From Morchella semilibera (lineage: Eukaryota > Ascomycota > Pezizomycetes > Pezizales > Morchellaceae): a DNA stretch of 64,000 bases. Both the position numbers and the translations under genes were made by a program. Shown here in pieces: positions 4,594 through 64,000 of the stretch. Location: contig WBVU01000003.1 in NCBI GenBank assembly GCA_009192285.1, positions 4,991,973-5,055,972 of the forward strand. The letters are read 5' to 3'. The notes beneath the pieces were generated by a model that had not been told where the DNA came from, ran no database searches, and was given only the letters and a program-made list of their open reading frames with translations. Each line of letters opens with the position of its first letter. Within the stretch, counting starts at the first letter, position 1.

Positions 4594-5559
4594 TGAAGGC
4601 GGAGTGAATAGAGCGAGGAGAGTATGATGAGTGAAGGTGGAGTCGAGTGGAGTGGGTGTCAGGACGAGTGAGTATCAGGACGAGTGAGTGAATGAAGTGA
4701 GTGAGAGTGAGAAGGTTTCTTTTTGTAAATAGCTTTTTGGCCTAGTAATTAATTGATTGGAGTCTTATCGTTATCGTGATCTTGTGAGACGTGAGTTTTT
4801 TTGGAAGTGAGCCGGGTAACTAAGACATCAAGGTGCGGGTGGAGATCTACGTACGTCGGGGAGACGTTTTAATTTTTATATTTATATATATATCTCTACT
4901 TTTATTTTATTTGTACAACCGGTGGTGTTGATGACGGTTCGGCTGGGCTTTAGGTAGAGTACTAGCTAGTGAATGTATGTACATTCATCATTGACAGGCT
5001 GCGGTGTACGTGGTCTGGTCCATGTTTTATCACTCGATGACCGGGCGAGTGAGGGCCGGTATGTGTGTAGTTACATGTAGTTATCCTCAAGCTATCGATG
5101 CTGACTCCCTAGAATAGAGGGTCAGGATTTGTATTATTTGATAAAGTAAGATCTGTTGGCAAAAGCTACCAATCTTTGCTTTTTGCTAGGGGTCAGCATT
5201 TATTACTAACAGCTTAATTAAGTACTATGTAAGGAGTGATTTATACATATGTAGGTCGGAAGATTTACTCAGTTGCTCGACTGGGGATTATCACTATGGC
5301 ATTCCGAGAAAGTTGATTTTCTACAATCGTCTCCGTGTGTATGAATGGTGTTTAGATATCACAATAGATTATCAGGGATAAAAGTCAATTGTAAACAAAA
5401 CTCTCCCTAGGTATTGACACAACAAAGTTTGTTAATTAGTGTCCTCTACTCTAAGATGAGCTCCTCAAGCCCAGAAGCCAAACTAAAAATATGATACAGG
5501 GTAAGAACTGTACACCCCCCCTTCCCCCAGCCCTCTTCCCCTCCTCCTCCACCGCATAT
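4594..5559. other. Intergenic, promoter side of tfc1 and 3' side of uS11m
   Basis: No gene is seen. Just upstream of tfc1 are short GAGTGAGTGA-type direct repeats (about 4665-4710). One copy of the dispersed CGAGTGATA-N4-RTGR motif (5020-5036, minus) lies 36 bp from a TACATGTA palindrome (5072-5079). Confidence 0.6.
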
Positions 5560-6180
5560 CTACAACCTCCTCTTCGCCCTACTCCTCGTCCCTCCAAACT
5601 TCAACCTCGTCGAATCCGTCACCCTCACCACACTCTCCCTAATGTTCTTCCCCTCCTTCCCCAGCAGCACCTTCGTGAACGCCTCCCGTCCCGGCCCAAA
5701 GTCGCGGTAATTAACCTCGATGTTCTTTGGTCTGATCCCGCGCTCCTCCATGCGGGCAAACATGACGCTTGCCAGCTGGTAGGCGGCCTCGAACGTCCCG
5801 CGGTTCGCCTTCTTGTAGCCGACGTTACCGCACGAGAGCGTCAGGATCACATCCTTGTTCGGCTTGGTCAGCGTGATGTGCGTGTTGTGCTTGGTGGCGA
5901 GCACGTTGAGGTGGTGCAGGTTATCCTCACTGCTGCCACCCTGCAGGCCGGACATGAAGACTGGGAACTCGGGCATTTCGGTGGTGATGGGGGTGGCGGC
6001 GCGCTGGATGCGCGTGCGGGAGAGGGTGCTGCTGCGGCCGAGGAAGCCTCTGAGCGTGCGTGCGGTGGTTTCGGCGGTGGTTTCGGGGGTGGTAGTGGTG
6101 CTGTTGGAGCGGAGGAAGGGGCGGAGGACGCCACTACGGAGATCGGGGAGGCGGAGGAGGGGCGCGCGTAATGTGGCCAT
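5560..6180 (-). CDS. Mitochondrial small-subunit ribosomal protein uS11m (MRPS11 / yeast Mrps18)
   Basis: Single exon, 206 residues. The start at 6180 gives MATLRAPLLRLPDLRSG, an acid-poor, Arg/Leu-rich mitochondrial presequence; an in-frame ATG at 6393 would add a poorly ordered 71-residue leader and is less likely. The uS11 core spans roughly residues 90-206: HITLTKPNKDVILTLSCGNV, KKANRGTFEAAYQLAS, then GPGREAFTKVLLGKEGKNI and the basic C-terminal tail ending RSRAKRRL. uS11 sits on the platform of the small subunit and contacts rRNA near the E-site. The Thr- and Arg-rich stretch between presequence and core is typical of fungal mitochondrial ribosomal proteins. Confidence 0.93.
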   Translation of the reverse strand: MATLRAPLLRLPDLRSGVLRPFLRSNSTTTTPETTAETTARTLRGFLGRSSTLSRTRIQRAATPITTEMPEFPVFMSGLQGGSSEDNLHHLNVLATKHNTHITLTKPNKDVILTLSCGNVGYKKANRGTFEAAYQLASVMFARMEERGIRPKNIEVNYRDFGPGREAFTKVLLGKEGKNIRESVVRVTDSTRLKFGGTRSRAKRRL

Positions 6181-6649
6181 GGTTATGGGGGTTGTGGATT
6201 GATATGAGGGTTTCTCTTCGGGTGGTGAGGTTGTGGTTGTTTGAAGGTTTTTGCGGTGATAGGCAGGGTAAGGGTTGTATATTGTCAGATGACTAGGACT
6301 CGAGGATGTGGGGTTGGGAATATGGACGTCAGTGGGTGGAGGAAAGTGGACTATAGAATCATTGGCTCTAGATATTACGAGTGATTGGGACAATATTCTG
6401 GTTCACATTTAGGCTATAGAACCACTACAGGGAAGCCTAAAACACATCTGATTACAGTCTCCTCAGTTTACCCAAATTGTACTTAATCATCACCATTATC
6501 GTATATCAAGCGAGGGAACGGAGGCCAATGTTAACACCCAACGAAATCCCCAGGTATGCGCCATTCGAAGAATATTTAAAACAAAGAAGAGAAGAAGAGA
6601 ACCGGCACAAAAAAAACTTTTATTGTTGTATCCGTGCTAGAAGCGCCAT
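6181..6649. other. Intergenic, upstream of uS11m gene
   Basis: No gene is seen. A CGAGTGATT at 6378 resembles the dispersed motif but lacks its second half, so it was not counted. Confidence 0.5.
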
Positions 6650-7242: not shown

Positions 7243-8720
7243 GATGGGCAGATCTAGCTGGGGTGGGGGTCGTTGTTAGTGCTTGGCTTGCTTTATGATG
7301 GAGCTTCAGTGATTTCGTGGGTGCGAGGATCAATAATGCGTCCAGAATTCCATCATAGACTCATTTAATTTTTTTGTAATTTTTTAGGCTACTCACTATT
7401 TAAGATGAGGGATTGACGGATAGGTGTATTTTCTGGTGTTTTATTTGGTCGTTTGCGATGGGCGTAGAATTGTCGGCGGCGGGAGTTTGAAAATTTCTGG
7501 ATGACAATGATGGACTTTGATTGTATGTGGAGGGTGCAAGCTCCCAGTGTGCGGGTTTGTTTGTCTTGGCGCATTCAAAAAGACCGTCACAGTTCCATGT
7601 CTAGCCCTCGGAGGTTCACTGTAATAGCTTAGTCACCTTGGGAAACAACCATCATGGAACCTCACTCGCGAGCCCGGATTTCGGGAGACCCCTTGCAGCA
7701 TGGTCATTTTCTACGATAGAGAAAAAACAGGATATGGGAGAAGCTCTGAGGTTTCGCGTAATACGCCGCATTTCTTCTTCTCCTTCACTTGGCTTTAATT
7801 ACCCACATTGCCCACGATAAGACGCTCGCGTGACAGATTACCAAATGTGGCCCATCCCATAATAATAAACCTTACCTACCACCATCTGTCTCCACACCCC
7901 TGCCACCCGATCCGGGAACTGAGCGCGCCGCCTGGAATGAGGCAAATTGAGTCTTCTGCCCCGAAACATGAGGGCGATAGGATTAGGTGGAGGCCAAAGC
8001 TGGGGAATGGGGGGGGGGGGGGCGTTCCACGGGATCACATATTATGTACATGTATGGTATTGAGACCCCCCGGATCGTCCTGGAAGAAGAGAGCATCCGT
8101 GTGTGTAACGCGAGGAAGAGGAGCGGGCTGCTTGTTATCATGTAGTCCCTTCGAATGTGTGTGCGGTGTAGATACATGTATAACATGACGACGGTTTCCC
8201 CCTCTCCACTACTGCTCGTGTGATGAATGGGGGGGGGGGGGGGCTTGATGTTGTTATTACTACGCCCCATGAGACCGAGAGAGAAGGGGGGGGAGGAGAG
8301 CGAGAGCTGGTTATATAGCTGGAGGGGGCGTGGCCCCTCCATCAATTGTAGATTATTGCTACTTCCTCTCATCACTACTGGCTGCTCGAGAAGGAGTTTC
8401 AGGGGGTCAACGGAAAAGACAGTCTTCCAGAACGTTGGGCGGTGTTTTAGCACCCGAACTCCCTTGGTGTCCGATTCTGCTCTGCTCTGTTTACATATCT
8501 GTTTGGTATTAGTCATCTTTAGATTTTATCTAAGGTGAGGCCACGCTTCACGCTGTATCACTCGTTATTGTTTTGCAGATCTGGCTGGTGTTTGTAACTG
8601 TTTGGAAGGTGGCTTGTTCCCCTTGCTCTTATTTTGTTTTCGGTTCTTCGATTATCTCACTGTTCTTGACACCCCCTGATTCATCATAAACCCGCTACCG
8701 CTACTACTATTTTTGTTTAA
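7243..8720. other. Divergent intergenic region between rps19 and the six-TM gene
   Basis: About 1.5 kb without supported coding sequence; it probably holds both promoters. It carries two long poly-G runs (8009-8022 and 8229-8243), TACATGTA at 8047 and 8173, and one CGAGTGATA-N4-RTGR motif (8548-8564, minus) about 160 bp upstream of the six-TM start codon. Confidence 0.6.
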
Positions 8721-9905: not shown

Positions 9906-11011
9906 AGGGTATTAGAAGGGTGGAGGCGTTGGTTTATTGGGAGCAGTGTTCTGTTCTTCGGCGTTTTTCTGCATTTTTATTTCTTTTGCTTTGATACTTT
10001 CTGTTTAGAGGGTTTGCGGTTACGCGAACAGGAAGGGAGAGGATGGGGTTAAGAAGAATGGGTGTTGGCTCTCAATAGATAAAGTCTAATAGTAATAAAG
10101 GGAACCAATATTGGTTTGGCCTGTTATTATATCCAGCTGGTTACCAGTATTTGGTCCTCACAGAATATCACTCGCCCATCATTGTTGCAACCAAATCCGG
10201 AAGCAATTGGCTGCAGAGCCTGCAGGGGTGACCACACCTTCCCTTCCTACGTGCCAGTCTACTTTAGATGAAACGATGATTCAACCCTGGTTTACACTAA
10301 CTACCGTATCGAGTGCGCTGGGGAAGTTTAACCGGATGAAGACAGATATTTGTCCTTTTGGTCAGCGAGAGTTGCGAGGGTTTCAAGGAGGAGAGCTGAA
10401 AGGCCAGCCGTGGTCCACTGGTGGCAGTACATACACTAGATTATAAATGATATGGTCGCGACGGGGAATTAATTAGGCTTTGGGGGTAAAGTTGTATATA
10501 CCTACATCTTACATACTTTACTTAATCGTACCTGCATGCGGCTGGATAAGGATAAGAATTCAGTATGTTAATTGGAGTGGGTTGTGGGTCGCAGGTTATT
10601 ACATTTAGTTATCGATACCTATGTCATATGGGTAGGTGCGTGCATGGGCTGGGGAACTTTTATATGTATGCAGAGGTGTAATTTGACAGCTGGGGACTGG
10701 GTGGGTTGTGGGGGAGTGGGTTCAGGGTTTGGTAGGGTGGCTGCAGGTGAGTATTATGCACGGGGTGAGTATTATGCACGGAGAGCGCGGTCAGCTCCTC
10801 AGACGATGTTGGGTATGCCAAGGAGAAAGGTGGTGGGAGGATCTTTTTACTGTAGGTACTGAAGGTTCTGGGCACTGGTCACGGGGGACGAGGGGATGGG
10901 GGAGTTATTCAGATGCAAATACGCCTTGATATTTTCCCAGATGAAAGTCTATAATACAGATATATAATAGAAAAAACCATAACTACATACTAGAGAACCA
11001 CGTGATTGACC
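9906..11011. other. Convergent intergenic region
   Basis: It lies between two 3' ends, and no gene is supported. It holds one CGAGTGATA-N4-RTGR motif (10158-10174, minus) and an exact tandem duplication of an 18-bp unit, GGTGAGTATTATGCACGG, at 10746-10781. Confidence 0.55.
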
Positions 11012-23678: not shown

Positions 23679-26600
23679 GCCGCCTCTATTTTCACATCTT
23701 TTCTTTCTTGCGGGAAACTGCTGCATTCATTATCTTTCTTTTGTGTATTTTGCAAATTCCCTATTTTGGCTTTTTCTCTCCTTTTTAAATTTTTTGAATA
23801 GTTCTTTTATACTTTCCTCTTTTCCTTGAAAAAAAAAATGGGGATTTAGTACTTTTTTTCCCTATGTTTTTACCCTCTTTATGGTTTCTTTTGTTATTAC
23901 ATAAATTTCTGCGGTTGTATTCACTTTGGATAGGATAGTTGTGCTAATTGTTTTGTCATGCCCTGCTTTGCGTTTTTGCCTCCCGTTTACTTGTTGCATT
24001 GCCATACAAAAACAGTGTTTTTACTTATACCCGATTCATACTTACGGCACTACTGTCCTTTTTTCCTTCCTTTTTTTTTCTAGTTTATTTACGTTTTATC
24101 ATGGCGAACATGGGAAGGGTGTATTCACTTTTATTTTATCTTTTTTGCAACTACCGGAGCAATTGGAGTGGGAAATTGGCCGTTAGGGAAACACATAAGG
24201 GGCATATTGGGAATGGTCATCATTTATTGTTTTCCCTGTTTCTTTCTTTCTATTATCATTAGGGGGTAACATGAAATTCAGGTCTTCTTTCACTTTCCCA
24301 TGGGTTGTTTTTATTGGTATTTATAATATGATAGTGGTCTTTTCATTTCTACTTTTGATAGTGAGGATATTTAGGGGGCGAGTACGTACGTTGGATACGC
24401 TTTATGATGCTTTTTGTTCTCTGGTTTATTATTATAGCCTATTTAACTCTAATTCATTGGTGCGGTTTCATAAATTCCTGTTTACTTGCCCAAAAACCGC
24501 CTGTCAATGCCAGACTAACTCTTTCTCTAGCCAAAATAAAATCTTTATTAACCAAGATTAGGGCTTATGATCAAGGCAAGCTTCCTATCCCTATCATCTA
24601 GCAGCTTATCCAGGATACCTGTGTTCTTCGGAAATAAATAGGCCGAGCTTAGTGTTGAGTTTTCATAATCAAGATCAGCAGCATAGCTTACCAAAATCAC
24701 CAGCAACTCTGATATTATCTCGTAGTGGTAATTGGTTAGCGATTGATATATAATTCTAAATACTGGGTCCCCGATTGCATTACCTTGAGCCCCTCTGGAG
24801 AAAGGAGCCATGATATGCTAGCGCTATTTTGAATCTTTTTCCTAGAGGGGCAAGGAAAGAAACTATAAAGTAATTGGTTGCGACAATAGCGTTAATAGTA
24901 TGATCACCTTACCCTAACTTAATATCTTTATGCAATAAGCTTTAGCGGGTGATACCTTGTGAAGGTAATTTCGAATTCATGTGTGCTCACGATCCGACTA
25001 GGAAAATAGATTACTGTACCATCATGTACCTACTATCATGTACCATCTATCTGGTCTATTTACATGCATACAACCTATAGTTGGCTACTTCCAGTCCTCG
25101 CGGCGGATTACTAGTAAGCTACCCTGAAACCTATTGATATAGGCCAATGGTGAGCAGATTACATGTAGTCTTCTCAAATTGCACACTAGAAACACTATAC
25201 ACCTCCTGCCACGTGCGTACCCTTGTGTATAATAACGTAACGTTCCAGCGGGCCAGGTGAAAACCCCCACAGTTATGGAAAAGAGCCTCTTAGGTCCAAA
25301 GATACGCCCTAGAATCTCTGAGCCTATCACAGGAGAGGAAATAATTTGTTGCTAGCTTACCGTTTAGTATGTCAATAACGGATCAGTCAGTATAGTGACT
25401 TCTAAAAGATCATTGATCATATGCGCTTTGTATATATTGTTATGGCGGATCTACTCATAGAGGGTGAGCGGGAGTACTCCACCCCCAAAAATGCTATTGG
25501 CTGATGGCCACTAAACCCAAGTGATGGCAACCGAGAAAGGACCCGTAGTTCCTTAGATAGGATTAGTTTAACACTATTACAGGCCCCCAACCAATTTCAG
25601 GGTGGATATGTACTCCCGCTCACCCTCTATGAGTAGATCCGCCATACATAGCGTTTACTCTGTGCTCACAAATATTGATTCTAAGCCTATATTAGAATGT
25701 AGATCTCTTAGCTTTTGTTTAAGTTGTGGGCCATCTGCCCAATGAGACGTTGATCCGATGATTCACGTTGCAGGCTATCGTCTTATTTTTATAGATACCC
25801 AACGATACATGTAATATGGCTTTGATTGGATTGAAATTAGATTTCCCCATATCCAACGATTACTAATTGACTGACGAGCATTAACATCTCCCTTAAGCCC
25901 AGGATTCCTTGTTAGCCCTCAAAACAATTTACCCTATAACTTGTATGTTGTCAGCACTCAGCATCAGTGAAACTTACGTGTTTTACCCCTGAAATCTGGT
26001 ATTACTACTGCACGTTAGACCAGGGTGCACTTTACTACTCCAAGTGAGATACGTGTAGGTAAGTAGGTACACGGAACACCGGGCACGTTAATTATGTACC
26101 TCACGGAGTGGTGGTGAATAGTACGATTAGACAGTGGTTATTTTGCGATAAATATATGCAATGTTTCGACGTGGCAGAGGTAGCCCTATCCAGACTTCAT
26201 TAACATGAGAGCTTGGGCTTGGTGTCCGGCTTAGGTCTTGGGTGAAAATAAGCGTGGAATCTTCGCATCTTTATACTTAACAGCACAGTGTTATACCACA
26301 GCCCAAAGAAGAACCGGTGGGTAAATTTATGCAGAGATGAAGTGTTTCCGAAGAGGATTATTTGACTTCAAGAAGAAACCTGTTGTCTAGGATTCTAACT
26401 GTACCTACTCCAACCACCATCAGCTTCTGTGCCGTGTTTGTAATCGGTTTGAAAAACCAGCAAATGGGAGTTAGAGCCGTAAATAATTATGAATAGGGAT
26501 GCCACACGTATGTATGTGATACTTTATTCGCTAGTTTTGTGCCGTCGGCCATCATAGACAACTAGGTACTGAACTAAATTTGTTCTCGGCCGACTCCTGC

Positions 26601-28994: not shown

Positions 28995-29632
28995 GATCTT
29001 GTATTGTCACATGGGGTTTCATATTTTTCTACTGCATTTTGGTTTGACTATGTCTTTAATGGATTATATATATAGTAATAAAGGGGTTAGACGGGGGTCT
29101 TGCATTTATCAATGTGCTCGATCTGAGTGCTGGAATTGGAGAAACTGGATATTCGAGTGATATTCTATGAGGACCCTGTTCGCCCCCAAATTCTTGCAAT
29201 CTAGGATCCCGCATGAAGTGATCGTCATCGGGCGAACTCTATTCCGCACCGGACTATCTGGCAGTTTCTTTGTCCGATCCCGACGGATGGTTTGCCGTCC
29301 CATTTCCCGCTATCGCTCAGGATAGTATGTACATGTATATACCTAGCAGGTTTCGCTTATTGGATCAAGTAATCTTGCTGTTATCACGGAATTCCGGGCC
29401 TTTGCTTTCACCAGGATATCACCTGGGTGTTGTATAGAATTTATCAATCTAGCTTGGCGACCCCTCTGTCCATCTTCACTCGACGTCCTCATCCACAGGT
29501 CATACACATTTATTCTTCAAGACTCCCTTCATTCCAAGTATATATGATTCCTACTCTACCAGCCTACCAGAAACCAGGTCATAATAGATAGCCCAAACAG
29601 TGGTACAATGCTTCGAATCATTCTCCATAATG
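28995..29632. other. Convergent intergenic region, MFS and vps34
   Basis: It lies between two 3' ends and holds no gene. It contains a CGAGTGATA-N4-RTGR motif (29154-29170, plus) and TACATGTA at 29330. Confidence 0.6.
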
Positions 29633-39135: not shown

Positions 39136-42100
39136 TGTAGTTGTAGTAGATTTTAGTAGACAGACTAGTTAACGAATGAAGTGTTTTTTTGAAATAAAAA
39201 AATGAGTGATATGTCCGGTATATAATAAAGACGGATCTTATAACTTTAACGACGGTCTAAAGAATGACAGAAAAGCAATAGACTTTTCAGAATGACCGAA
39301 TAAAGAAGAAAGGAAGAAAGGAAGAAAGTAGTAGTAAAGCCCAAGAAACTGTAAAGTAGAGGTAAAGTGTGGGAATTGAAGAAAGTAAATATGAGAAAGG
39401 GGGGGGTATGGGTGCCCTTTTAGATTTAGATTTGTTGGAAGACAGGATAGGCTGGTAAGAAAAAAATCCTAGAAGGTTGAACTCTGGCCCTGCAGATGCT
39501 ACAACCAGGTTTTTATTGGAGGTGATCCTAAATGGCAAAACTCCAAATAAGGGAACGGTTTAGTATTTCAAGATAAGCGAGTGTAGGCAGGTACCCAGTG
39601 CAGCAAATAAAAGAGTGTAAAGAGAGACAGAAAATAAACAAGGACTGACTGTCCAGTGTCCACTCTGATACTATCGTGGTGGGCGGTAAGGTAAAGAGTG
39701 TGCGTTGGAACAAGAGGGAGTTGATGGGTAGCGGGGACAACTAGGTACGTACATGTACGGAAGAGAAAAATAGAGTGCGAATTAAGTCGAGCCAGTGGAA
39801 AGTAGAAATTGTGTAGCTAAAGATAGAGAATTTTGTTTTTTTTGTTTATACACTTACCAGAGAAGAGGAAAGATGCCCGTGACGACGAAACACGCGAGTG
39901 GAAAGGGGCAAGGTCTTGGAATCATACTTTCTACCCTACCACAACCCCTACCAGCTGCTTGACTGAGACACGAGATATTAACCTCACTGGCCAGAAGTCG
40001 TGGCGAGGGCAGTAACCTAGCTGTTCCTGAACTTCAATAGGTGGCGAGCCAAATAATAGGGAAAGGCTCAAGATTTCATCATCGAATCAATTTGCTCGAT
40101 CCTCACATTGAATATCAGAAACTATGGACCTGCGCCTATGTTGGTAGGTAATCAGACGGCAAAGAGTCAAAGACACACACCTAACCTCGCGCCGAGGAGA
40201 AAAATACCTAGGGCGTCAGTAGGTACAACGTGCAGTACAAATAGAATGTATAACCGCAAGCCAAGGATCTATACTTACTACCACCAAATGCACCTACCCT
40301 ACATACTCTACATGCCCACATTGCAGTGCAGACGCCCTATGTATGTTCTTGAGGTCGTGAGTTTCAGTGTCAGTCAGTCGATTTCAAGACTTTTCCGTTT
40401 GGCTCGGTTTCTCCTCTTCTCTTTGTGCAGAGGCGGTTCCTGGCTCGCTGGGTGGGTACATAGAGGTTCTTTCTACGCCAGGCAGCCGCGCGATGCACCG
40501 TTTCGGTGTCACAGCAGCGATCCGAGCACAGGTGTTACAGGGTATAAGCCGCTAAAGAAGGTTTGCTGCAGGGGCACTTGGGCAACAGCAGGCAATAGTA
40601 GCCCCCTCCTCCCCGCCAACATGGGGGGGAAGAAAAAAAATTCCGCTGGAAATCCAAGCTGAATAAAACCCCGTTATGCATAAGTTTCACTAGGGAAGAT
40701 ATGCACGCAGCCTGTAGGCAGAATTCGATGTCGTCTACATAACTTCATGTGTAAGCGCCATCCCCAAGTATCGCTCTCTCACGACATTGCATTAGAATGT
40801 TTGCCGTAGGAGGGGAGGAGAGGTCCTTAGAGGCGTGTCTACCAAGTCAAAGGCACTTCCCCTCTTACTCACTGTCCCACCAGAGAATAACATTGCTTGT
40901 TTCAATTGATAACACATCTGTACATCCGCATTAGTGACTTCCACGATGGCTGATGGATTTAAGGCTCATCGGGGGAGAGATATAGCCGGCTTCTCTCAGC
41001 ATGTACGAGAAGACACCCCCATTTCAGACACCCTCCCTCCCCCCCTTAAGCTTTCTTCCTCCCTCCCTTCCTTCCCTCCTTCCCTCCTTCCTTCCTTCCT
41101 TTCCTCAGCCCTTCATGTCCCAGGAACGAACTCAGTACCCGCAGATGTCATCCACGATCCGCAAACATTCCACAGTGGACGGTGTGGCCTAGAACACACC
41201 ACTGCCACGCTCCTTTTGTGCGATATTAGGAATACGTGCGTCCCAATTAGGAAAAACTCAGGGGATGGGACGAATGCAGCCGGCAAGCGAGCCGGCACAG
41301 ACGGGATGATCGTTGTGAAGCGCCAGCCTCTAACCAAATGCAGAGATCTACTAACTGAACGTGTATGAAACTACATGTATGTTCGTCGTCGCTACCATCT
41401 GGGCCGCCAAGCCCCAAGACTAGAATACGGGTGAGATCCTTTGCACCAGAAGACCCAAATAAATTTTCGCCGCTTCGGGTACTTGACAAGCATCAAGTAC
41501 TTTAGCTGGTGCATACCGAGCCAATTATAGAAAACTATACTAGTAATGGAGAGCCAGGAAGGTATAGAGTACGAAGTGCCCAGATTACGAGTGCACATAC
41601 CTCACAAAGCTGAGTTGAGGTTAGCTACATAGGGTGAAATGAAAATAAAGCTGTCTCGGGTAGTAAACTTACCATGACCCAAGACTAGAAAAATATCGGT
41701 GGTACGCTGCACAGATAGTCAGATTATTACGCCATTTTCGCCGGATTACCGGAGTTCTTGTCGAAAGATCGACTCAGGACGAGTGCTTTTCGATGACGCG
41801 GGATGTAGGTGATCCAGCGCAAAGCCCTGATCAATTGAAGTCTTCACGCTCTTTTTTTTCCATTTCCAAGCCGTCTTTGCAGCCCGCTGGCCCCGCTCTG
41901 CTAAGTGCTTTGTGCAGAGGTTTCACGACTGGCTGAGTCGGAGTTTTTTTAATGACCAGGGTTGTACCAGCGTTGTTCTTTTTTCCTCTGACCGGCTGTA
42001 TTAATGTTGCTGTGATAGGGAGAATGTGGGTAATCAGAAAGGAGGCCCCCACGGAACACAACGCGTCTCCTCCGATTTTCCATTCTCTGCTCGCATCGTA

Positions 42101-44291
42101 AGTAGAGGAGTAGAATTTGTGTGAGGGGAATTAGGTCTTGCTTTTTCCTCGCACCGTATTCGATGTGGCTTGCGTGATAGGTGGGACAAACAAGAAATAG
42201 GCGGGTCATGTGACTGAAGTATTCCAACACTCCAACACAGCGACTCTCATTCCAATTACCACTTCAGCCTTTGAGGGTGTTGATAAGAGGCACGTGGGTT
42301 AGGGGGAGGCCGAGGGGGGATTTATCAGTTCCTACATATGCGGAAGTAAAGTATCAATTCTAGGACATGAATCAATTTTTGTATCACTCTAGTTGATGTG
42401 ACAGAATTCTATAAATGCCCAATTCTCGAGATGATGCCTAACAGCGAGCGAAAATGACATACCTATCGACATGTAGATAAAGTAGACATTCTCAGAGCAT
42501 CTCAGGCAGTACACGTTTCCGTGTAATTGGCCCTTGCAGCTGGCACAACGTGGCTTACTAGTTCAAATTACAGCCCTAGATTGATTGGTCAAACAAGCGA
42601 GCCACGCAAGGCCTTTAATGAGCAATGACTAGAAGACGAAGCACTGAGGGCTGAGAGTGTTCGGGTGAAAACCCCACTGAAAACATCGCGCATCAGGCAT
42701 TGACTAGTTGGTGCAGACATGACCACATAGCGGTAGGTAATCAAATCTCCTTCTCGCATTGTTGTGGTCCCTCCGAACCAACCAAGCCAACAAAGGCATA
42801 TTTACATTTAAACCGGCTACGAAACCCTTTGTATTTATACCAAGGAAGGTACTCGTTAAAGTTCTAACGTGCACAATTGCAATTGTGAGAGCTTAAAGTC
42901 TCTAAACCCGTACTCTATCGGTGTGCCCTGGTATGAGGTTTAAGGCCCCACCCAACCTTAAGTACGAAAGGAGTCTTAAGACTCGAATTGGTCCTTGTTG
43001 AACAAATCTCCTCGGGCTCGTGCGCTCCAGTAACATGGACCGAAAATCCAGGAAACGAGATGAAACCGAGAGTACAGAATATGGTTTAGGTGGAACAAGA
43101 CCAGATCTCGTGCGAGCTAAGGGGGTAACATTGCAGGTAAAGTTTCGTCATGTACAGCCCACCATAATACGGGTTTTTTTGAATCTGTGCACGGAATTGA
43201 TGGATTAGTTTGATGAATATCTCGTTTGGTAAACTCGATACTTCTTAGTCAGATCATCTCCACTCAACACCTGTGCCTCGGGGCGAAAGAGAATGTATAA
43301 GAGGTGCCGAAATACCCGTACGACTTATTCTTATGAGTTCTGAATGCGGCCACGATCTGAGGAATCTATGCTGCTCGCTCGCTGCCTTATGACGTTTCCG
43401 GACTGGAAGTAGGCTTTATGGTTATCGGGTTCCCAGTGAACTATGTATTAGAATATGGACGCCGAATAAGAGATGCATACTTTAATGGTTCAAGAAACTG
43501 ACGATCTATAAGGTTTCATGTCTAGCCAGCCATCGAGGTTACGCGTAATACATAAGTGCTTAACTAACCTGACGATAAAGTGTCCTCTACAGACGTAAAG
43601 ACACATGCAGGTTACATGTATGCGTGCAGGGCTACATGACATTCCCGCTGTCGCTCCCATACGGTCTCAGAGCCGCACAACGGCCCGCTCTGTCGGAAAA
43701 GGAACAAACCTACTCCAATACATATACAGTATCAACAGCAATATTGGCACTGGTCGAAGTGCGGATTACCAGCACAGTCACCTTGGTACTATGGAATGCA
43801 TGCTCTGATGTCATGTTAACTGCTTAATCAAGTCCTAACAGAGCCAAAAGAAAAGGGTAAAGTATATCGTCAATAATTATACATATACTTTGACCGTTAT
43901 TGGGCTCACCTAATCTAGTTACAACTTAAGAGCAGATTAATTCTCAGGGATGAGCTTCATCCGAGTGATATACTGTGACCACATGGGCTCAATTAGCGAT
44001 TGTGTAACGTCAATTGAATCTGTGCAGCCCGCGCCGCCAACGAATCAAGGGTTGACCACTATCTATTCCCAATAGAAAAAAAAGATACAGGACTACTTTA
44101 AATTAATTCCATAACTTGGGAAATGATCATGCACACTTGACAGCCTTCTGGAATCCTGGAATTGATCTATATTACAGCACCCTTACGTCAACATGCAGTA
44201 CATGCATCAAAGCCTAATTGTGTCGTTCCTGGTCCCCATCCTCCTACTCCTCTGCCCCTCACCGCTGTCTCTGGTACCTCCAGATACCTCC
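39136..44291. other. Gene-poor 5.2-kb region
   Basis: No coding sequence survives inspection; frames here are short and of low complexity. It contains a polypyrimidine microsatellite (about 41046-41107), TACATGTA at 39750, 41372 and 43613, a CGAGTGATA-N4-RTGR motif at 43962-43978 (plus), and a 16-bp perfect palindrome CACAATTGCAATTGTG at 42872-42887. Confidence 0.55.
41046..41107. repeat. Polypyrimidine (CCTT/CCCT) microsatellite
   Basis: An imperfect run of TTCC and CTTCC units, all pyrimidine on the plus strand. Confidence 0.8.
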
Positions 44292-45179: not shown

Positions 45180-45703
45180 ATATGGTAATGGAATAATTTT
45201 ATATAATTAACCATTTGGTCTCTAGAATCAGTCTTGGGCGTCGTAGGTTTCTTTGACTTTTTAAATTAACATGACCTGTTGGTCTTTGGGCACTCCTTGT
45301 CAAGAAACGATAGCCTCCCTATATTTATCACCTTCACATACCAGAAGAGCCACCCAAGCCAACCATCTACCCGTCTACTACTTAACATTTCTATTCCACG
45401 TGAGGATAATTATACAATAAGGTGTCGATTCATGGGGGGTCACTCGGTGCGTCTGACGGATACATGTAATTATGATGCGCTTTGGACCACATCAGATTCC
45501 GGGCTTCTAATCATTGACCACCAACCAACCAACCTCACTCATCACCACATATAGTTTCAACACCGGAACAATCACCACAAGCTACAAGCTGAAAAATAAA
45601 AGTGGAGGGGAAAAAAAGGAAAAGTACAGCACGGCCCTTCCGCGCATCTACCATTGGTATCTATCTAGGCCAGCCAATCTAAACAAACGTCCACCCCAAC
45701 CCC
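45180..45703. other. Convergent spacer between two Nudix genes
   Basis: No gene. TACATGTA lies at 45461-45468, 14 bp from a near copy of the dispersed motif (45430-45446, minus; CGAGTGACC-CCCC-ATGA). Confidence 0.55.
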
Positions 45704-47302: not shown

Positions 47303-50300
47303 AGTAGATAGGGCGGGGAGGGGTAGGAGAGGAGATTGTGAATTTACTTTTGGGGAGGGCTTAGGTAGTGACTTGGAGCCTTGCAGTTTTCTAGAAGAGA
47401 CGAGTGTACTCTACCTATTATATAGATACATGGATGTAGTACATACATGTATGTATTGCGTAAATCTAATTACATATTCATGTGTGGTCAGGTCTCTCAA
47501 TGCAGATCTATCCCCGATCGACCCCCTTTGTCCATGCAGTTCACAATTCACAAGACCCGACTGCCAAGCGGTGGTGTTGCTCACATACATGTAACCAACC
47601 GTGGATCACTAAATATCACTCGAGGGCTTTGTAGCAAAATGTGATATGGAACCAGGATCGAGGGGGTGGGGTGGGGTGGGGTGGGGGCGCAAGTAGAGCG
47701 GGTGGTGCCTGTGCCTGTGATTCCCCGGAGTAATCCAGTAATCCCTTGACTAATGTAGCATCTACCAGATAGAGTCTGATAGACTACTTGTAGGCATCGA
47801 CCGACGAGAACAGGTGCAGCAGCAGCAGGATGTTCCATGCTAACCACCCACTGACCAAATTGGGAATTCACCATCAGACGCTTTTGATACTACGGACGGG
47901 TAACCCGCTCAAGCAAGGCACCCTTTGTGGGGAACACCTACGTGGTGGGTTCGAGGCAAAACTATTTCGCCTTGTTTCGGGTTCTGGGATATATCTGTTT
48001 GCCCCGCCAAAGTGTTTCGGCCAGGGATTGACTTCATAGTCGTATCTTAATACACTGTGTCCATGATTACCAACCCAGGCTTCCACATGTCCCCCGAGCT
48101 TGTCATACAAGCTGGTACATGTACATGCTGCTTGTATCTAGTGTCAAAGACCTCAGATTCCCCCACTCATGTTACTCCCCTTTATAGTGTCTTTCCTTTG
48201 AGCACGAGCTATCCTTTTATTCTTCCCTTAGGTAGTCGGTCCGATCCTACCGCTATAGTCTTGCCCGGCATTCAGAGGCTGCCGGGAGAAACAGCTACCA
48301 TAGCCGGATATTACGGCGACCGATGGTTACAGTTAACTTAATAGCAGTACACGCGCTAGAGAAACCCACCAACAAGGTAGACAATGATGTGCGTGAAGGG
48401 TACACAGGGATAAAAGTACCCAGTGGCAGTTCTAGATAGCTAGAAAGAAGTCTGTTTCTTATAATTCTAGCAAGGACCATCTGTGAAGAACGACAGCCCC
48501 TAGAGTGCGTAGAATGGATAGCTAGCTGGCTTGAGGGCGTGACAGTATGGCTAGAGCCTCAACTTGAAGTCTGTATATAAAGAAACAGGGCTTCCGGTGT
48601 GTCAAGTGTTGATATTCTGGTTATCTTACCTTGAGGAGTTGGTACCAAGTGAATTCCCTGGAGATCTTTCTTACCTTTGCACCAATACTAGTGCCTTTAA
48701 TCCCGGCTAGAGATTATTGGAGTTAACTTTTTAGGGAAGGGGCGGGGGTGTATGTGTATCGATATATATCCCATCAATACTTCAGGTAGGAGATATAGCT
48801 TCAGTGTTTCTGATTTAAGCTGGGTGAAGTTCTTTCCTAATATATTCTGGATGGTATGAGCAGTATGAGTAGGCTTAAGCCTGGAACCTATTGTCTGTAG
48901 AACCCACCTGTAATCCGTTGCTCCCTACTCATCATATCCTCTACGCAATTGAAGGGAAAACTTACCTCAACACTCAAATTACTTAGAACCAACAAACCCG
49001 ATACTCAAACAGATCGGCCGACTAATCGTCTCCCTCTCTTACTTTTCATGTATTAAGGATCACTGAATATCACTCGGCATAAATACCGGCCCGGGGGGGG
49101 GGTTGTTTGGTTCGATAATTAATACCGGCGGGTTGGGCTTTAGTTTCAACTATAGTTTCTTTGGGTAGATAGCTGGTTTGTGGCCTTGAGTCTCCAACCA
49201 GCTCGCGATCGCGATAAAATGAGGGGTCTCAGTTAACTCCAAGCAAGGCCTGAGGACTAGAGCTCCCTTCCTAAAGTATGAAATGAATGTATGTTTAGGG
49301 TACCTTGGCAGAGGGCCAGATAGCACTGCGGAACTACTTATTCACCAGTGTCAGCAGGAAAGGGGTGCAGCAGCTCTCAAAACTGTCGAGAGATCCCTAC
49401 TTGTAAGGGTGCTGTTTAGTTCCGTTGTCCTTTCTATGTAAGTGATGACGGAATGGTCTTTTACTAAGGGGGGTTATCGCATTCCCGATATAGCGGCGAG
49501 CGTTCTTACGGTGACGCGATCTCGAAGACATCTAACAGGGGGAATTAAAGAAAAATTAGTGGCTAGCATTGTTTTTGAGCCTCCTTATAGTAGCGGGTCG
49601 TAAATATGGGCTTGGATATCCTCCATTAAGTATCTCGGTGAGGGCAGGGTTTGAACCTGAAGGATCATTGTGAGCAGGCAGAAAAAAGCTACATCTCAAG
49701 CCTAGCCAATTCCTCTTCCTCTAATCGGGCCGGCTAGGTGATAGGCGGTGGGAATGCCTTATATCTGCCGCCTAGTCTTTTATCTGGCCATGGGAGGGAG
49801 AATAAGTGCACTCTATGATAGGATGGGAGCCGTCAGGAGGGACGCTAGATTGCGCTGTTGATGATGTTGGTGATGGCATGTCCACCAAGTCCTATGGTGA
49901 TAACGGCGGTGATATTGGTGTACGCTCAGTCGAAAAAACGTGATAAGTTAGCTCTTTGGTAGACGGAGGGGGTGTGGACGGTACCATATACTCGCAAAAA
50001 AAATAAGCATCCTTTTGGTACTTGGGTGACTATCAACTTTCCTTGTGTGGCGGACTTGTTTTTTCCCGCTAGTCAATGTACCAGTAGCCCTAATAGACGC
50101 GACGCTGTTACCCTTATCCACAGTACTTTTCTTTCTCCATACCCTCCCCTCCCCACCATTCTCCTTCGATCACTTCTTTTTAATATTGATTAGCTGCATG
50201 CAGATGAGTCTTAGATAAAGGCTCCAGTTAATTCAGTCCAATAAACAAAAATGGATCTTGCCCCTGGTGGAACCTTGTTACATAGTAGTAAATGGAACGG

Positions 50301-50709: not shown

Positions 50710-51388
50710 TATTGACCAGCCGCGAATATCCGCAATTACACGCGGATCATATCATATCACTCGAATATGGCGCGGACCTAACCTGAGAAGCCAAATTATT
50801 AAACACAAGCTTCTATCAACTATGTAGCTATAGACAAGGGTAATGATTAGTATAAAATACGTATCAATCCATCACGTAACAATTGCACTTGATGTTAGTA
50901 CACATAGCCGGTTTATAGCAGGCGTGCCATTTGGTAGGAATACCACAATCACGAATTAACGGAGCAGTCGGGATGATCACATAGAGGGACGCCAGCTAAA
51001 ACCGGCGGCCTCTACACCTATTTGATACGTGTTGCAACCGGTGGGGTTGGGTGCGTCCCAAACCTTTAGTGAGGTTTTTACACCGAGAACTATCATCATT
51101 GGCTCCCAGTACAGCGAATAAGAGCAAAACGGCAATCTCAATGGAGGGGAGTGTTTTGTAACAGTGATATATGAAATTATAGTTTATAAGCCCTTTTTTT
51201 GCTATTGTTTCAGATCTCCTCCCGGGGTCTGCCCTGTGGTACACGAGTCGAAAAGATAACTTATTGTCTATAGAGGATGAAAACCTCCCATACTAATGTA
51301 TCGTAAAACCAAGGATGCTTTATACCTACAGTTGCGTAACTCGTGCACTTTCACGAGTTTTCAGGATAGGCATATCTCTACTCCCCAA

Positions 51389-51532: not shown

Positions 51533-51547
51533 AAGCTAAACCACTAA

Positions 51548-53411: not shown

Positions 53412-54420
53412 TATTGGATAATCGAGTTTTGAGGAGTGGTTTTAGGAGCGGAAGATTTAGGTATCGATCGGTACTTGGTACATGACGTAGCTTATGGGCC
53501 CAGGGGGGGAGGGGTAATCGGAGATAACGATTTACGACTTAATGATTCATGAATGTCCGATGAACGTTGAAAAAATTTATACTTTGGATTATTTCCTTCT
53601 TTCTTCTCTGTATCATGTTTGTACCCTCTTGTTCTGGGCGATGGATGTATCCCGTATGTGGTATATACGTGGGTTGGTTGGTTTGATCACATATTATCAC
53701 TCGGGTAGCGTGATGCAGTCTCTTGGCACAAGAACTTTTTGTTTTGATTTATTTTGAATTTCGTTTAGGTTTAATATGAAGCTACATGTAATGTACCTTA
53801 TCTGCCAGAATACCATGACACTCCGGTATATATTGCTACAGCATGCATTGCTATGATATAATGACCGAAATTCCGATTTAATTCGGAAGTTTTTCACGAT
53901 ACCGTATTTCTATGGTATCTATTACATCCCCTTTTTTGGTACTGTATATACGGGGGTACGGGGGCGATTAGCGGCCAGAATCTTCTTAGGTCATATGAGA
54001 ACCTATTGTCCTTACTAAGTACGGCTGCGTGAGTATGTGTTGTGAGCAGTTAGACCTATTGGGCCGAGAGAATTGAGCGTGTCAGGAATAGTGACAGCCA
54101 TCTATAATTCCTCTAACATGCATGCCAAGCACACAGCGCGTCAATACTCGTTACTCAGACGCAGCACAACCTAACTAAATACTAACAAAAGATGTGAAGA
54201 CAGCGAGCGCCTCTCGCTCCTACAATGCGGCTTTGAGCGAGGCCGACTAGGCTACCGCACCGTTTAATTTTGCTGACATCCGACCTGACTCTGACGTCGG
54301 GCCCGGAGTGTCGACGGCGCCAACGGAACTTCCAACCGGGTGGGAGGCTGTGTGGTGCCAGCTGAATGCTTTCTTCTCTGCTTCACGTCACTTAAACAGA
54401 GAGCAACAAACATCGACACA
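53412..54420. other. Intergenic next to decayed gene region
   Basis: No gene. It has a motif copy at 53687-53703 (minus) and TACATGTA at 53783. The stretch 54076-54135 resembles, with many changes, the start of the local repeat at about 54650. Confidence 0.5.
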
Positions 54421-54690: not shown

Positions 54691-54880
54691 ACGCCAGGTA
54701 CTTGGCACATCATGTGTTATCACTCGTAGAGTTATATGGTGGATAAATGGTGTGTAGCTTTTGGCGGTGCTCCTCCACCTCATAGCTCGATACATAAGGA
54801 AACGCTGTACACGAGGAGTGATTCCAACCGAGTGATTGATTATGAGCCAAGATTCTTGGCGCGCTAACATGATTAAGTAG
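54691..54880. repeat. Local diverged repeat, copy 1
   Basis: Shares two blocks with copy 2 at 55515-55642: CGCCAGG-ACTTG-CACATCATG continuing to TGTTATCACTCG, and TTGGCGCGCTAAC-TGATTAAGTAG. The DNA between them has diverged. It contains a motif copy at 54710-54726 (minus) and a near copy at 54829-54845 (plus). Confidence 0.7.
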
Positions 54881-55514
54881 ATTAGTAAACCTGTATTTAT
54901 GGTTGTCACAGCCACAGTATGTAATGACTAATCCGTTTAGTCTTTGGTATTTGTCGCGCTGAATGGAAAGTCTTCCTTGCTGCTATGGGTGATTCTCAGC
55001 AAACGAATGCCAGGATGCCTCTACTATACTCGGACTCCTAGCTTTGCCATTGGAGATATATATATTGTTCTACCACATCCACCAAGAAGTCGGCTGATGG
55101 ACGTTGTCGGCCAATTTTCCCCCACCTATTAAGAGCACACTTGGCGTTTCCTGGCATTTCTCCGCTCCTTTAGATGGTATTTGCATATAAAGTGGTGTCA
55201 CTATTGGTCCTTTTCATATGGCGCGTAAAGTATTGGTTGCTGTTTCGGAGGTTCTTTTTTGCTTGTACCCTATGTCTACGCTTACCAGATAATTAGCTTA
55301 GCATTTTACCAGCTGTATATAGGGCTATATTTTATTTTATTTTAGGTATACCTAGAGACGTAATTGTTCGTGGCCTTTTTATCTTTTGCTAACAGAGGAT
55401 AGGATTGAGAAAGATGAGGGTACGGGGAGGAGCGCAGTGACGGGAGGAAAAGGATGATTTCGACCGGAGGGAGTGTCAGGGTCAGGATTTTTGACCTGCG
55501 TAGCTCTTTCTGAC

Positions 55515-55642
55515 ACGCCAGGCACTTGACACATCATGTGTTATCACTCGCAGAGCGATAAGATCGGCATTAAGAGTGCGGCCCGATCATTGAATGCTTG
55601 ATCTTGGGCCAGGACCCTTGGCGCGCTAACTTGATTAAGTAG
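55515..55642. repeat. Local diverged repeat, copy 2
   Basis: Second copy of the unit at 54691-54880, in the same orientation and about 60 bp shorter. The first shared block contains a motif copy (55534-55550, minus). No target duplication could be identified. Confidence 0.7.
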
Positions 55643-55765
55643 CAGATCCCTCAAGCATTCCTTCAACATCGACGACGAAGATACGGACCATAAACATGTC
55701 GGCTGCCAGCCGCTCAGCACGGCGTAATGTCTGTTTTACGGTGCTAAAAAAAACCCACAGCCCAC

Positions 55766-60042: not shown

Positions 60043-61533
60043 TCTGTGTATTAATAGGTACGTAGCTATTAGCTGCTACTGCTACTGCTGCTGCTGCTGC
60101 TAGCTGCTGTCACTAGCCCAGCTACTCTATGTATAGTTACGAAGGAGTAACCAAGCGAAAGAAGGGGGGGGGTTTGGTTGGGAGGTTGTGGTTGGGAGGG
60201 TTTGGTTTTGGGAGGGGGGAGTGTGAAAGCGATGTTTGGAGGTTTGGTTGGTTGGGAGTTTGATTGGGGGGGGGGGGGGGTGGGATGATGTGGGATAAGA
60301 ACGGCCCGATCGTTGGTTGGTTGGGTGGAGAAGGAGAGAGGGAAGGGAGGGAGAGAGAGATTCGTTCTTCTTGCCTTCTTTCCTTCCTTCTTTCCCTTCG
60401 GCAGGCAGGATCGGAGAGCTCGTGGATGTCGTGCAGGTACTTGGTATGCAATGCATGCATTGCAGGAGCTATGGCCTACAGGGGGGGTGAGGGGAGGGTG
60501 AGGGGGGGGGGGGTACATCATACATCATACCCATACCCATACCCAGCTAAAAAGTAGGTATGTAGCTTATCGATAGGAGGACTACATGTATGTACCTACT
60601 GCTGGGGCGGGGACTGGTGATGCACTCGAATAGGTATTCTTCCTCGGGGAGTACCTTGCCATCTCTTCTACGTGTAGGTATCACCACCACCACCGTCGCA
60701 GTGGCGATGGGGGGGGAGGGGGGGGTGGTGGGCTCGTTTAATTACCTCCCCTTCTTTGCTTCCCCTGATGGGATGGGATGGGGTGTGACTGTGGTGGGCC
60801 TTGATGGGTGGATTATCAGAGTACAGTCTACAGGGATGGTGGGGTGTGGGTGTGTGTGTGTGGGTGATCGGGGAGGAGAAAAAGGGAAACCCCCCCCGTA
60901 CCTACTAGTGTAGATACACTTACTTGGGCCGTCAAACATCTTCCCTATCTGTGTCTCTCGGCGGGGGTCTCAGATGGGAGTGAGTGAAAGGTGCATGTCT
61001 CGGTCTGGATGTAAAGTACCTGTACCACATGTACTCTATAGTACACTGTTTCCCGTTCCGCCAATGAGTGGGCGGGGGTAGGTAGGGCTAGGGTTTGTAT
61101 TATTACAGAGTATGTAGTGTGTGGTACAAGGGCGGGATGGGGGGAGGGCGTTGGGTTATTAATCAGTTGGGGGAGGGAAGGAGGTTATCGCTCACGTACG
61201 GTGGTGCTACATACATACATACTGCGAGAAGTGCCCGTACAGGCGGTGTGGTGGGCGGGGGTGTGTACGTTCTTGCATACGACCGTGGATATATACTATA
61301 TCTCATTCTATTTCTATAAGTACATGTATATACAAGGGGTGTCCATATATCATCAAGAATACCACATCCCGAGTGATATCCCATGACACAGGCCAATAAT
61401 CCCTCATCCGGACTAGCGCATCCGCGTCGTCGGTCCGTTAAATGAGAATTCACGACCCCCGACGCGTTCTCCCCAACACCGCGTCAACCAACACGAAATT
61501 AAAAAAGAAGCAAAAATCCTCGATTAACAAACC
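60043..61533. other. Divergent intergenic region
   Basis: About 1.5 kb with no supported gene. It contains GCT/GTA trinucleotide runs (60072-60108), poly-G runs at 60266-60280 and 60502-60513, TACATGTA at 60583 and 61321, and a motif copy at 61370-61386 (plus), about 150 bp before the polymerase subunit start. Confidence 0.6.
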
Positions 61534-63085
61534 ATGGCCTCCTCCTCCCGAGCTTCAAAAAGCTCAATTGACGCATTACTGCGTGCCCCATCGTAAGCCC
61601 CCCTCCCCCGACTCAGAATTCCAATTGCTAACAAAATTTCCCCCTCCCCAGCTCCTCACGGCCGTACGCCTCGCCGCAGCGGACCACAACCACCCACGCG
61701 CCCACGGACCGGTTCACGGTGGAAGCAAAGACCTACCAGCAGCAGTTCTCAAACATGTACTTTCTGCGGCTGTGCGTTCTCAAGCCGAGCGTCGACGCGG
61801 CAGCGCAGACGGCGTGGGACGGCGCCGAGATCGCCGGCGAGGCCATCCACCATGTGGACCGCGTGCTCAACGTGCGCCTGGGCGAGATGTGCTGGATCTC
61901 GGGCACGGTCTACATGGACATGCCGCTGAAGCCAAACATCCTCGACGACATCACAAAGGACCACTGGATCGCGCCGCCGCCCCCAAGGGAGAAGTATACC
62001 TCGCCGGGCGAGGACCAGATCATGCTCGAGGACGAGAGCGGCCGGTTGCGCCTCACGGGCGGCATCCTCATGACGCACAACCTCGTCACGGGTTGTGTCA
62101 TCGCCGTCATGGGTAGTGAGACCGCGGGCGGAGACTTTGAGGTGCTCGACCTCATCATCCCGGACCTCCCGCCGCCGCCGCCACCCCCGCCGTCACCCCC
62201 GGCAAGGGGTAAAGTTGTGCTGTGCAGCGGGCTTGCGTTCCGCGGCGGCCGCAGGGAGACATATGCGACGGACCTGCTGCAGGAGTGGCTCCTCGGCGAA
62301 CTGGGCGACACGGCAGAGCAGGACAGCGCCGCGGGGATCACGCGGCTAGTGCTAGCGGGGAACTCACTTGGTGCGCCGCTGGCGGCGGTGGCGCCCGTCG
62401 CCACGGCGGAAGGGGGGGAGGAGCGCGAGGCCAAGAAGAAGTACGGGTACGATGCGTCGACGTACGACGCGTCGCCTGCGCGTGCGCTGGACTCGTTCCT
62501 GGCGCAGCTGCTGCCGTCGCTGCATGTCACGGTCATGCCCGGCGCCACGGACCCGGCGAATGTGTCGGTGCCGCAGCAGCCGCTGCATCCCGCTATCTTT
62601 ACGGCGGCAAAGGCCTACGGCGGGAGCACGCTCGAGAGGGCCACGAATCCGTGGGGGGCTGTGGTGGGCGGCGTGGCGTTCCTCGGTACCGCTGGGCAGA
62701 ACTTGGAGGATGTGTATAGGTATGTTGAGGGGGATGACCGGTTGGCTATGGCCGAGAGGCTGCTGAGGTGGAGGCTGCTGGCGCCGACCGCCCCGGATAC
62801 GTTGTGTATGTGTTTCCCCCTCCCCCGGTTGGTGAGATGGCGGTGCTGATTGACTGTGTAGGGTCGTACCCGTTCAAGGACCAGGACCGATTCGTGATCG
62901 AGGAGTGTCCGCAGGTCTTTTTCGCCGGCAACCAGGACCGGTTCGAGACGAAGCTGGTGGAGGGCGTCGACGGGCAGAGGTGCAGGATCGTGCTGGTGCC
63001 CAGATTCGCGGAGACTGGAGAGGTCGTGGTCGTGGACCTGGAGACGCTGGAGGCCGAGCTGGTCAAGTTCCAGCTCAGGGAGTAG
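61534..63085 (+). CDS. pol31: DNA polymerase delta small subunit (Pol31/Cdc1, POLD2)
   Basis: Exons are 61534-61592, 61652-62805 and 62862-63085 (478 residues, usual for the family). Intron 1 (59 nt) has donor GTAAGC and branch GCTAAC; intron 2 (56 nt) has donor GTATGT and joins PDTL-W to SYPFKDQDRF. The N-terminal part is TDRFTVEAKTYQQQFSNMYF, then the OB fold with GEMCWISGTVYMDMPLKPNI and LEDESGRLRLTGG. The inactive phosphoesterase domain starts near GKVVLCSGLAF and contains LVLAGNSLGAP, VTVMPGATDPANVSVPQQPL and the closing FVIEECPQVFFAGNQDRFET. The subunit links the catalytic subunit to Pol32/Cdc27 at the replication fork. A Pro-rich loop (PPPPPPPPSPP) between the OB and phosphoesterase parts is longer than I recall for relatives. 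Confidence 0.95.
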
Positions 63086-64000
63086 TGGTAGGGTAGGTAG
63101 GTACGTACTATAGGGCTAACTATAAACAAAAAAAAAATATACTATTAATTGGAGTTTGGGTTTTTTTTTTTTTTTTTAGAGGAGATTGTTTTTGTTTTTT
63201 GTCTTTCTTTATTTTTTTTTCTTTATGGAAGGCGTGGGCTGCTGGGTGGTGCATGGGTGGGGGGGGGGGGTCACGAATATGAATGCGGAATAGATATATA
63301 CTGTAGTGTTAGTCAAGTAGTTATAGACAAGAAGCATGCATGCGCCATGTTAATATACGTTTGAATGCAGGTACCTGGGGGGGAATCCCGTGGGAGCTCA
63401 ACCTCTACATGTAGCTTCTGGGGAAGAGCCAGGGTGTTGGTTGGTAGTTTTCAGACTGGAGGGCGCTGCATATAGATGATGGAGGGTGATATGATGGCTG
63501 GGTGTCGGTGTATTATGTTGTGTATACATGCAGTGTACCCGGTGCATTGCTTGGGGTGTATGTAATGGGGACTGACGGTAGTGGGATACCAGGGTCATGT
63601 ACTCTAGAGTTTCACCCTCACGGTGCGAGCGAGTGATGGCCTGTGATGGTGGTGTTAGATATGCACGTGTTTCTAAAAATAGACTAGTATTGACGAGGGT
63701 TGCAAATTGCGATTGTTTTATTGGTTTGCGGTCTGTACTTGGATAGATGAGGATGAGAGATCTGCTCTACGGAGACGGTGATGGTGATGGAGACATCGAT
63801 TGATTGATTGATTGATCTGCAATTAACTGTCTATGGCTCTTGTCTCGTCCAGAGCCGATCGCCACAGTCCGCAACGGTTAGCCACGATCGATAAGGCATC
63901 ATCAGCTTAATTGACCACATTCACCACTCACCATCCATCACCCGCAACCGAGCATCGTCATCTCACCACCACCACCACCACCAAACAATCATCATCATCA
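63086..64000. other. Intergenic at right edge
   Basis: No gene. It contains a poly-T run (about 63160-63177), a 12-G run (63259-63270), TACATGTA at 63406, a near copy of the dispersed motif at 63630-63646 (CGAGTGATG-GCCT-GTGA), a GATT repeat near 63798 and CACCAC/ATC repeats at the very end. Confidence 0.55.

Follow-up and report, generated by a model that had tools for sequence, protein, structure and literature searches.

A 17-bp bipartite motif, CGAGTGAY-N5-RTGR, noticed in a 64-kb stretch of the Morchella semilibera genome (contig C19:4991973-5055972, referred to below as the window), is real and genome-wide, with thousands of near-identical copies spread through the 56.76 Mb and 23 contigs of the assembly. 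On the basis of sequence, we consider it probable that each copy is the site of one two-module DNA-binding protein, which would have a general regulatory or architectural role in the manner of Reb1 or Abf1. The genome-wide number of copies, the profile of tolerated changes, the edge at 21 bp and the tendency of the motif to point into genes near their predicted starts are new to the present analysis.

The word CGAGTGATA is present as 14 exact copies in the window, compared with 0.45 expected (100 shuffles, maximum 3), and these lie where an earlier inspection of the letters by a model (the sequence-only reading) had placed them when it put the chance expectation at approximately 0.5. Each of the 14 is followed after exactly four bases by RTGR, as had been claimed, and 13 of them, rather than the 12 counted earlier, end in RTGA, the exception being the site at 5020, which ends in ATGG. 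The bipartite form CGAGTGAYNNNNNRTGR occurs 18 times in the window compared with 0.00 expected (100 shuffles), i.e. as the 14 exact CGAGTGATA sites and the four previously listed near forms, all of which keep the second half at the same spacing. Genome-wide counting, which had been proposed as a check, gave numbers far above those for the reversed pattern used as a control: CGAGTGATA-N4-RTGR (CGAGTGATANNNNRTGR) was found 3,543 times (1,752 + 1,791) compared with four control matches (1 + 3), and CGAGTGAY-N5-RTGR (CGAGTGAYNNNNNRTGR) 7,679 times (3,798 + 3,881) compared with 45 (19 + 26). Allowing up to one mismatch to CGAGTGATANNNNRTGA gave 8,925 matches, compared with 88 in the control. The relaxed form averages one site per approximately 7 kb, and across the different forms the range is one per 7–16 kb.

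These genome-wide counts are slightly inflated by duplication in the assembly: C12 and C13, which have nearly equal lengths, are identical across the 3,996 bp compared. This 4-kb pair is therefore uninformative on constraint, and we rejected the two contigs as haplotypes for an allelic comparison. Contigs C9 and C10 may form a second duplicated pair, as judged from one site coordinate only. The window is approximately 3.5-fold denser in sites than the genome mean (14 exact bipartite sites compared with 4.0 for 64 kb), and five 10-kb stretches outside it together hold two. Clustering is slight, with five gaps of less than 700 bp between sites on contig C1 (2.7 expected) and five on C19 (4.6 expected). 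A polarity of strand along the chromosome was considered and rejected, since minus-strand sites are also found beyond approximately 0.53 Mb.

The spacing of the two halves is rigid. When 0–12 bases were allowed before RTGA in a scan of the genome (1,773 + 1,925 matches, compared with 13 + 18 in the control), the spacing was four in all but five of the matches listed. Tolerance to change was assessed in a 194-kb sample that was not picked by site and that consists of a 144-kb stretch of C19, including the window, and five 10-kb stretches. This sample holds 35 exact copies of CGAGTGAYN5RTGA and 18 one-mismatch forms, compared with a simulated background of 0.00 exact copies and approximately two one-mismatch forms. 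The changes in the 18 forms fall at positions 1 (three), 3 (two), 5 (one), 7 (three), 8 (two), 15 (one) and 17 (six), whereas positions 2, 4, 6, 14 and 16 are unchanged in every one of them, a protein-like profile. Beyond the core, a pyrimidine is preferred before C1, T at position 10 and pyrimidines at positions 11–13. The pyrimidine-rich spacer described from the window holds as a bias in the larger sample, but is not strict. Further downstream we find a pyrimidine at 18, C or G at 19 and a weak preference for A at 20–21, with nothing evident beyond, which gives a consensus of approximately 21 bp, about Y-CGAGTGAY-N-TYYY-RTGA-Y-S-A-A. The halves GTGAY and RTGA lie one helical turn apart in direct orientation, the RTGA units being offset by 10 bp; the direct repeat suggested by the sequence-only reading is thus supported and would be best explained by two DNA-contact modules on one face of the helix.

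Flanking sequence was compared among 88 sites (CGAGTGAY-N5-RTGR in 27 regions and 11 later loci), a sample that is partly site-selected, as 30 loci on C1 and 11 others were chosen because they bear a site. One copy was kept of an identical pair of loci (L054/L055, on C12/C13), and matches of more than 99% identity were set aside as overlap when the two sites belonged to the same region and lay within 800 bp of each other. Flank matches (E 1e-3) that cover both motifs are 20–30 bp long, with the exception of the sites at 54710 and 55534, which have 89% identity across a 47-bp block. This pair lies in a diverged local duplication (window 54650–55650) with two matching blocks that are 82–89% alike and in which the 17-bp site is identical. 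The flank comparison, also proposed earlier, thus showed that similarity between sites stops near position 21, with no long shared flanks, and two regions around window sites, of 301 and 801 bp, matched only themselves and the local duplicate at 54710/55534 when searched against the whole genome. From the sharp edge, the rigid spacing, the few tolerated changes and the unrelated flanks, we infer that duplex DNA is recognized by one two-module protein.

The placement of the sites was examined with simple splice-aware gene predictions (median intron 72 bp). None of the 88 sites falls in a predicted exon, although 25% of the sample is coding, and none falls in the coding segments called by a second method. 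The intergenic placement claimed earlier therefore stands with respect to predicted exons and for most of the sites examined, which are found in gaps between genes, but not for four of the 88 sites, which lie inside gene spans, in introns. In the 144-kb stretch, to which the gene at 52458–53411 was added by hand for the analysis of gaps, there are 44 sites (≤1 mismatch), of which 38 are in gaps, three are in gene spans and three lie past the outermost genes. The number of sites per kb in this stretch is 0.44 for divergent gaps, 0.48 for 5'-3' tandem gaps, 0.52 for 3'-3' gaps and 0.13 for 3'-5' tandem gaps (one site in 7.8 kb); at least one site is present in 19 of the 30 gaps, and the number of sites tracks gap length with a correlation of 0.71. 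The corresponding count of gap classes on the 88 sites was made after leaving out 52 that are in a gene span or have no gene on one side. With every class of gap occupied, the statement that both promoter-side and 3'-3' gaps carry the motif is confirmed, and the occurrence at promoters and in 3' flanks, but in no predicted exon, is the placement looked for in a general regulatory factor.

Near predicted starts the motif tends to point into the gene. Within 600 bp of a start, ten of 11 sites point into the gene (two-sided p approximately 0.012), as do ten of 12 within 1 kb, figures drawn from few sites with several statistics tried, and a hand count in the 144-kb stretch showed that 15 of the 19 sites in gaps with a start match the direction of the nearest start. 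Two more genes, which came under study for a different reason, agree with this: the Reb1-family gene described below and one that is presumably Cdc5-like, judging from its N-terminus, with a site approximately 210 bp upstream in the same direction.

As an observation in its own right, the palindrome TACATGTA is strongly over-represented in the 194-kb sample (72 palindromic places compared with approximately 12 expected) and is approximately 2–3-fold denser within 100 bp of sites than in the noncoding baseline. A further palindrome, TTTGCGCAAA, is enriched in the same sample, with 12 strand counts (six places) compared with 0.53 strand counts expected.

General regulatory factors have been well described in budding yeast, and the motif resembles their sites in its direction near starts together with its abundance near 3' ends. 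The Abf1 sites of yeast, for example, are bipartite and RTCRYNNNNNNACG-like and are bound by such a factor. They share with the motif its bipartite form, its fixed spacer, an RTGAY half and the behaviour of a general regulatory factor, but the order and spacing of their halves do not align with CGAGTGAY-N5-RTGA. Sites of the CENP-B box and fission yeast Abp1 type are 17 bp long and are read by two helix-turn-helix modules; they have the same length as the motif but an unlike sequence. In the mechanism that we propose, one abundant sequence-specific protein with a footprint of approximately 21 bp would occupy each copy, with one contact module on GTGAY and the other on RTGA, a helical turn further along. 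This factor would sit in the gaps between genes, most likely keeping them nucleosome-poor, would separate adjacent transcription units and, at promoters, would tend to face the gene. We commit to a Reb1/Abf1-like factor because placement and direction resemble those of general factors and because of the yeast literature on Reb1 and RSC. One study describes yeast Reb1 motifs (CGGGTAA/TTACCCG) as enriched just past those polyadenylation sites at which divergent transcription units begin; when the Reb1 sites of a test promoter were scrambled, the level of antisense transcripts rose (PMC7618759). In another, RSC and general regulatory factors limit divergent noncoding transcription (PMC9481977).

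Several observations weigh against such a factor. The yeast 3' Reb1 sites of PMC7618759 are divergent-promoter places and not plain 3'-3' gaps. The gene ends that lie within 1 kb of our sites are 3' ends in 38 cases and starts in 12, and the sites near 3' ends have no directional bias, 21 being opposite to the gene and 17 the same. Of 62 flanks, 43 have the 3' end of the gene towards the site, whereas for random noncoding positions the figure is 311 of 577. In addition, no gene was predicted within 1.2 kb of 43 of the 88 sites, many of which are in loci of only 3 kb, in which a gene might be overlooked. Among the functions that the sequence-only reading had offered, it is the regulatory or chromatin-type site that we favour; a replication site is favoured less, and the preserved end of an old repeat family is not supported.

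The main rival is a boundary or insulator site, at which the bound protein would stop cohesin or separate chromatin domains in a directional manner, as a functional counterpart of CTCF in a kingdom that does not have it; we regard this as possible, although doubtful. The motif is long and asymmetric, occurs in 3'-3' gaps and is commoner beside gene 3' ends than beside starts. Moreover, of 75 pairs of neighbouring sites, 48 have the same direction, compared with 38.0 expected from shuffled strands (one-sided p 0.010), and among all pairs within 5 kb 37 of 55 do so. For C1 alone p is 0.039 (from the first 46 places among the matches listed); C19 alone is not significant (p 0.11 for the relaxed form and 0.18 for the exact form), and the shared direction is lost among all pairs at 5–10 kb (24 of 46). 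One site per approximately 7 kb is also dense for loop anchors, and the direction near starts suggests a role at promoters. The likeness to animal CTCF lies in a long asymmetric site, thousands of copies and a possible tendency of neighbours to share direction at short range; the sequence differs. Rather more tentatively still, a fungus with no CTCF may use a dedicated two-module protein and approximately 7,700 directional 21-bp sites to divide its chromosomes into units of transcription or chromatin. According to a review, CTCF occurs in metazoans only and the boundary elements of fungi are incompletely characterized, the nature of fungal boundary or insulator regions being still to be examined in detail (PMC10246852). 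Thousands of copies of one sharply defined site make this question testable, and the boundary reading, if true, would mean a genome-wide CTCF-independent boundary code in this fungus.

It is improbable, in our estimation, that the binder is the fungus's own Myb protein of the Reb1 family, its specificity having shifted from CGGGTRR to CGAGTGAY. This proposal names one binder inside the general-factor behaviour, and the confidences in the two are not mutually exclusive. A Reb1-family protein is encoded at C12:1464662 and matches the Schizosaccharomyces pombe Reb1 structure 5eyb (E 1.5e-28). Its Reb1 Myb-associated domain (residues 251–315) scores 21 bits, where Pfam sets the cut-off at 27; C13 carries a Myb match of equal score. 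The genome has 17 Myb matches, of which seven places were retrieved and one, that on C12, was compared with solved structures. The first half of the motif and the Reb1 site have cores, CGAGTGAT and CGGGTAAT respectively, that are two transitions apart, and the Reb1-like gene has an exact site in the same direction, 1,190 bp ahead of its predicted start. However, the resemblance of CGAGTGAT to CGGGTAAT is a lead only, as a likeness with two mismatches arises easily by chance among a few known motifs. An unchanged specificity is hinted at both by the Myb repeat, which retains the S. pombe Reb1 segment CRDRWR (which we take to be the recognition helix), and by a canonical TTACCCG 19 bp before the predicted start of the gene, and CGGGTAA is not enriched in the noncoding sample (eight compared with 12.0 expected). 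Reb1 sites are likewise short and strict and occur between genes, both at promoters and close to 3' ends, but the motif here is CGAGTGAY rather than CGGGTAA/TTACCCG and is bipartite, with its second half RTGA ten bases on. A Reb1 site would be expected at the terminator of the ribosomal DNA; in a search for that DNA, only a 5.8S-like fragment was found, and a large-subunit pattern had no match. This fragment, at approximately 1500–1570 of locus L056, is below the family cut-off, and the surrounding 3.2 kb has no Rfam match.

Just as improbable to our minds as the Reb1-family binder is a role confined to promoters, in which the motif would drive coding genes and, where it lies in 3'-3' gaps, transcripts that are noncoding or antisense. 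It would account for the sites within 600 bp of predicted starts and for the one upstream of the Cdc5-like gene, but 3'-3' gaps are as rich in sites per kb as divergent gaps and sites are commoner near 3' ends than near starts. A base skew on the 3' side of the motif was also considered as an indication of transcription starts and rejected, as the skew is weak at gene-distant sites and elsewhere follows the neighbouring genes.

We think it very unlikely that the motif is a replication-origin recognition site, although it is strict and short, with many copies in non-promoter gaps and one per 7–16 kb. Yeast origins have AT-rich surroundings, whereas the GC fraction here, taken in four bins of 50 bp between −100 and +100, is 0.447–0.472, compared with a baseline of 0.462. 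The missing AT-rich flank alone does not exclude a replication site; pointing into genes near their starts would not be expected of one either. Finally, the idea that the motif is what remains of one end of a dispersed repeat family, in favour of which the very high copy number might speak, can be practically dismissed, and with it an origin from a transposable element, because similarity stops near 21 bp without shared flanks (one 47-bp local duplication apart), two neighbourhoods are unique genome-wide bar the local duplicate, and one-mismatch forms are outnumbered by exact copies and leave five positions untouched.

No description of the motif was found in literature on the word and its complement, or on fungal motifs, factors or boundaries, which was mostly open literature and partly covered by title or abstract, and the main text of PMC10137650 contains no CGAGTG, CACTCG or GTGAT. 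The sites in the window are collected in the following table.

Table 1 Copies of the motif in the 64-kb window, with their positions, strands and surroundings
Form	Position	Strand	Surroundings
CGAGTGATA-AAAC-ATGG	5020..5036	-	427 bp upstream of predicted start of TFIIIC Tau95-like gene (minus strand), same direction
CGAGTGATA-CAGC-GTGA	8548..8564	-	tandem gap, minus-strand genes on both sides
CGAGTGATA-TTCT-GTGA	10158..10174	-	~850 bp 3' of CCCH/RING gene
CGAGTGATA-TTCT-ATGA	29154..29170	+	~470 bp 3' of PI3-kinase-family gene, 3'-3' gap
near form CGAGTGACT-TGTT-ATGA	33696..33712	+	3'-3' gap adjoining squalene epoxidase gene
CGAGTGATA-TCCT-ATGA	33980..33996	+	3'-3' gap adjoining squalene epoxidase gene
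CGAGTGATA-CCCT-GTGA	34267..34283	+	3'-3' gap adjoining squalene epoxidase gene
CGAGTGATA-TACT-GTGA	43962..43978	+	~220 bp upstream of NUDIX gene, same direction
near form CGAGTGACC-CCCC-ATGA	45430..45446	-	524-bp 3'-3' gap flanked by two NUDIX genes
CGAGTGATA-TTTA-GTGA	47606..47622	-	~310 bp upstream of predicted minus-strand gene, same direction
CGAGTGATA-TTCA-GTGA	49060..49076	-	divergent gap
CGAGTGATA-TGAT-ATGA	50747..50763	-	divergent gap
CGAGTGATA-ATAT-GTGA	53687..53703	-	3'-3' gap
CGAGTGATA-ACAC-ATGA	54710..54726	-	local duplicated pair with 55534
near form CGAGTGATT-GATT-ATGA	54829..54845	+	3'-3' gap
CGAGTGATA-ACAC-ATGA	55534..55550	-	duplicate of 54710
CGAGTGATA-TCCC-ATGA	61370..61386	+	~156 bp upstream of DNA polymerase delta subunit B gene, same direction
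near form CGAGTGATG-GCCT-GTGA	63630..63646	+	681-bp 3'-3' gap
weaker site, one mismatch to CGAGTGAYNNNNNRTGA	2684..2700	-	
weaker site, one mismatch to CGAGTGAYNNNNNRTGA	7652..7668	-	
weaker site, one mismatch to CGAGTGAYNNNNNRTGA	24946..24962	+	
weaker site, one mismatch to CGAGTGAYNNNNNRTGA	41780..41796	+	
weaker site, one mismatch to CGAGTGAYNNNNNRTGA	63928..63944	-	within predicted gene span

The window has no match to a known RNA family in Rfam and no tRNA by ARAGORN. Its genes include those for squalene epoxidase, TFIIIC Tau95, a Mcp5-type PH protein, a PI3-kinase-family protein and DNA polymerase delta subunit B. Together with the short introns and the Reb1-family protein, these genes are consistent with a filamentous ascomycete. 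The large coiled-coil gene with the Mcp5-type PH end also carries, at 17510–20276 of the window, several tandem repeat arrays with periods of 42 and 135.

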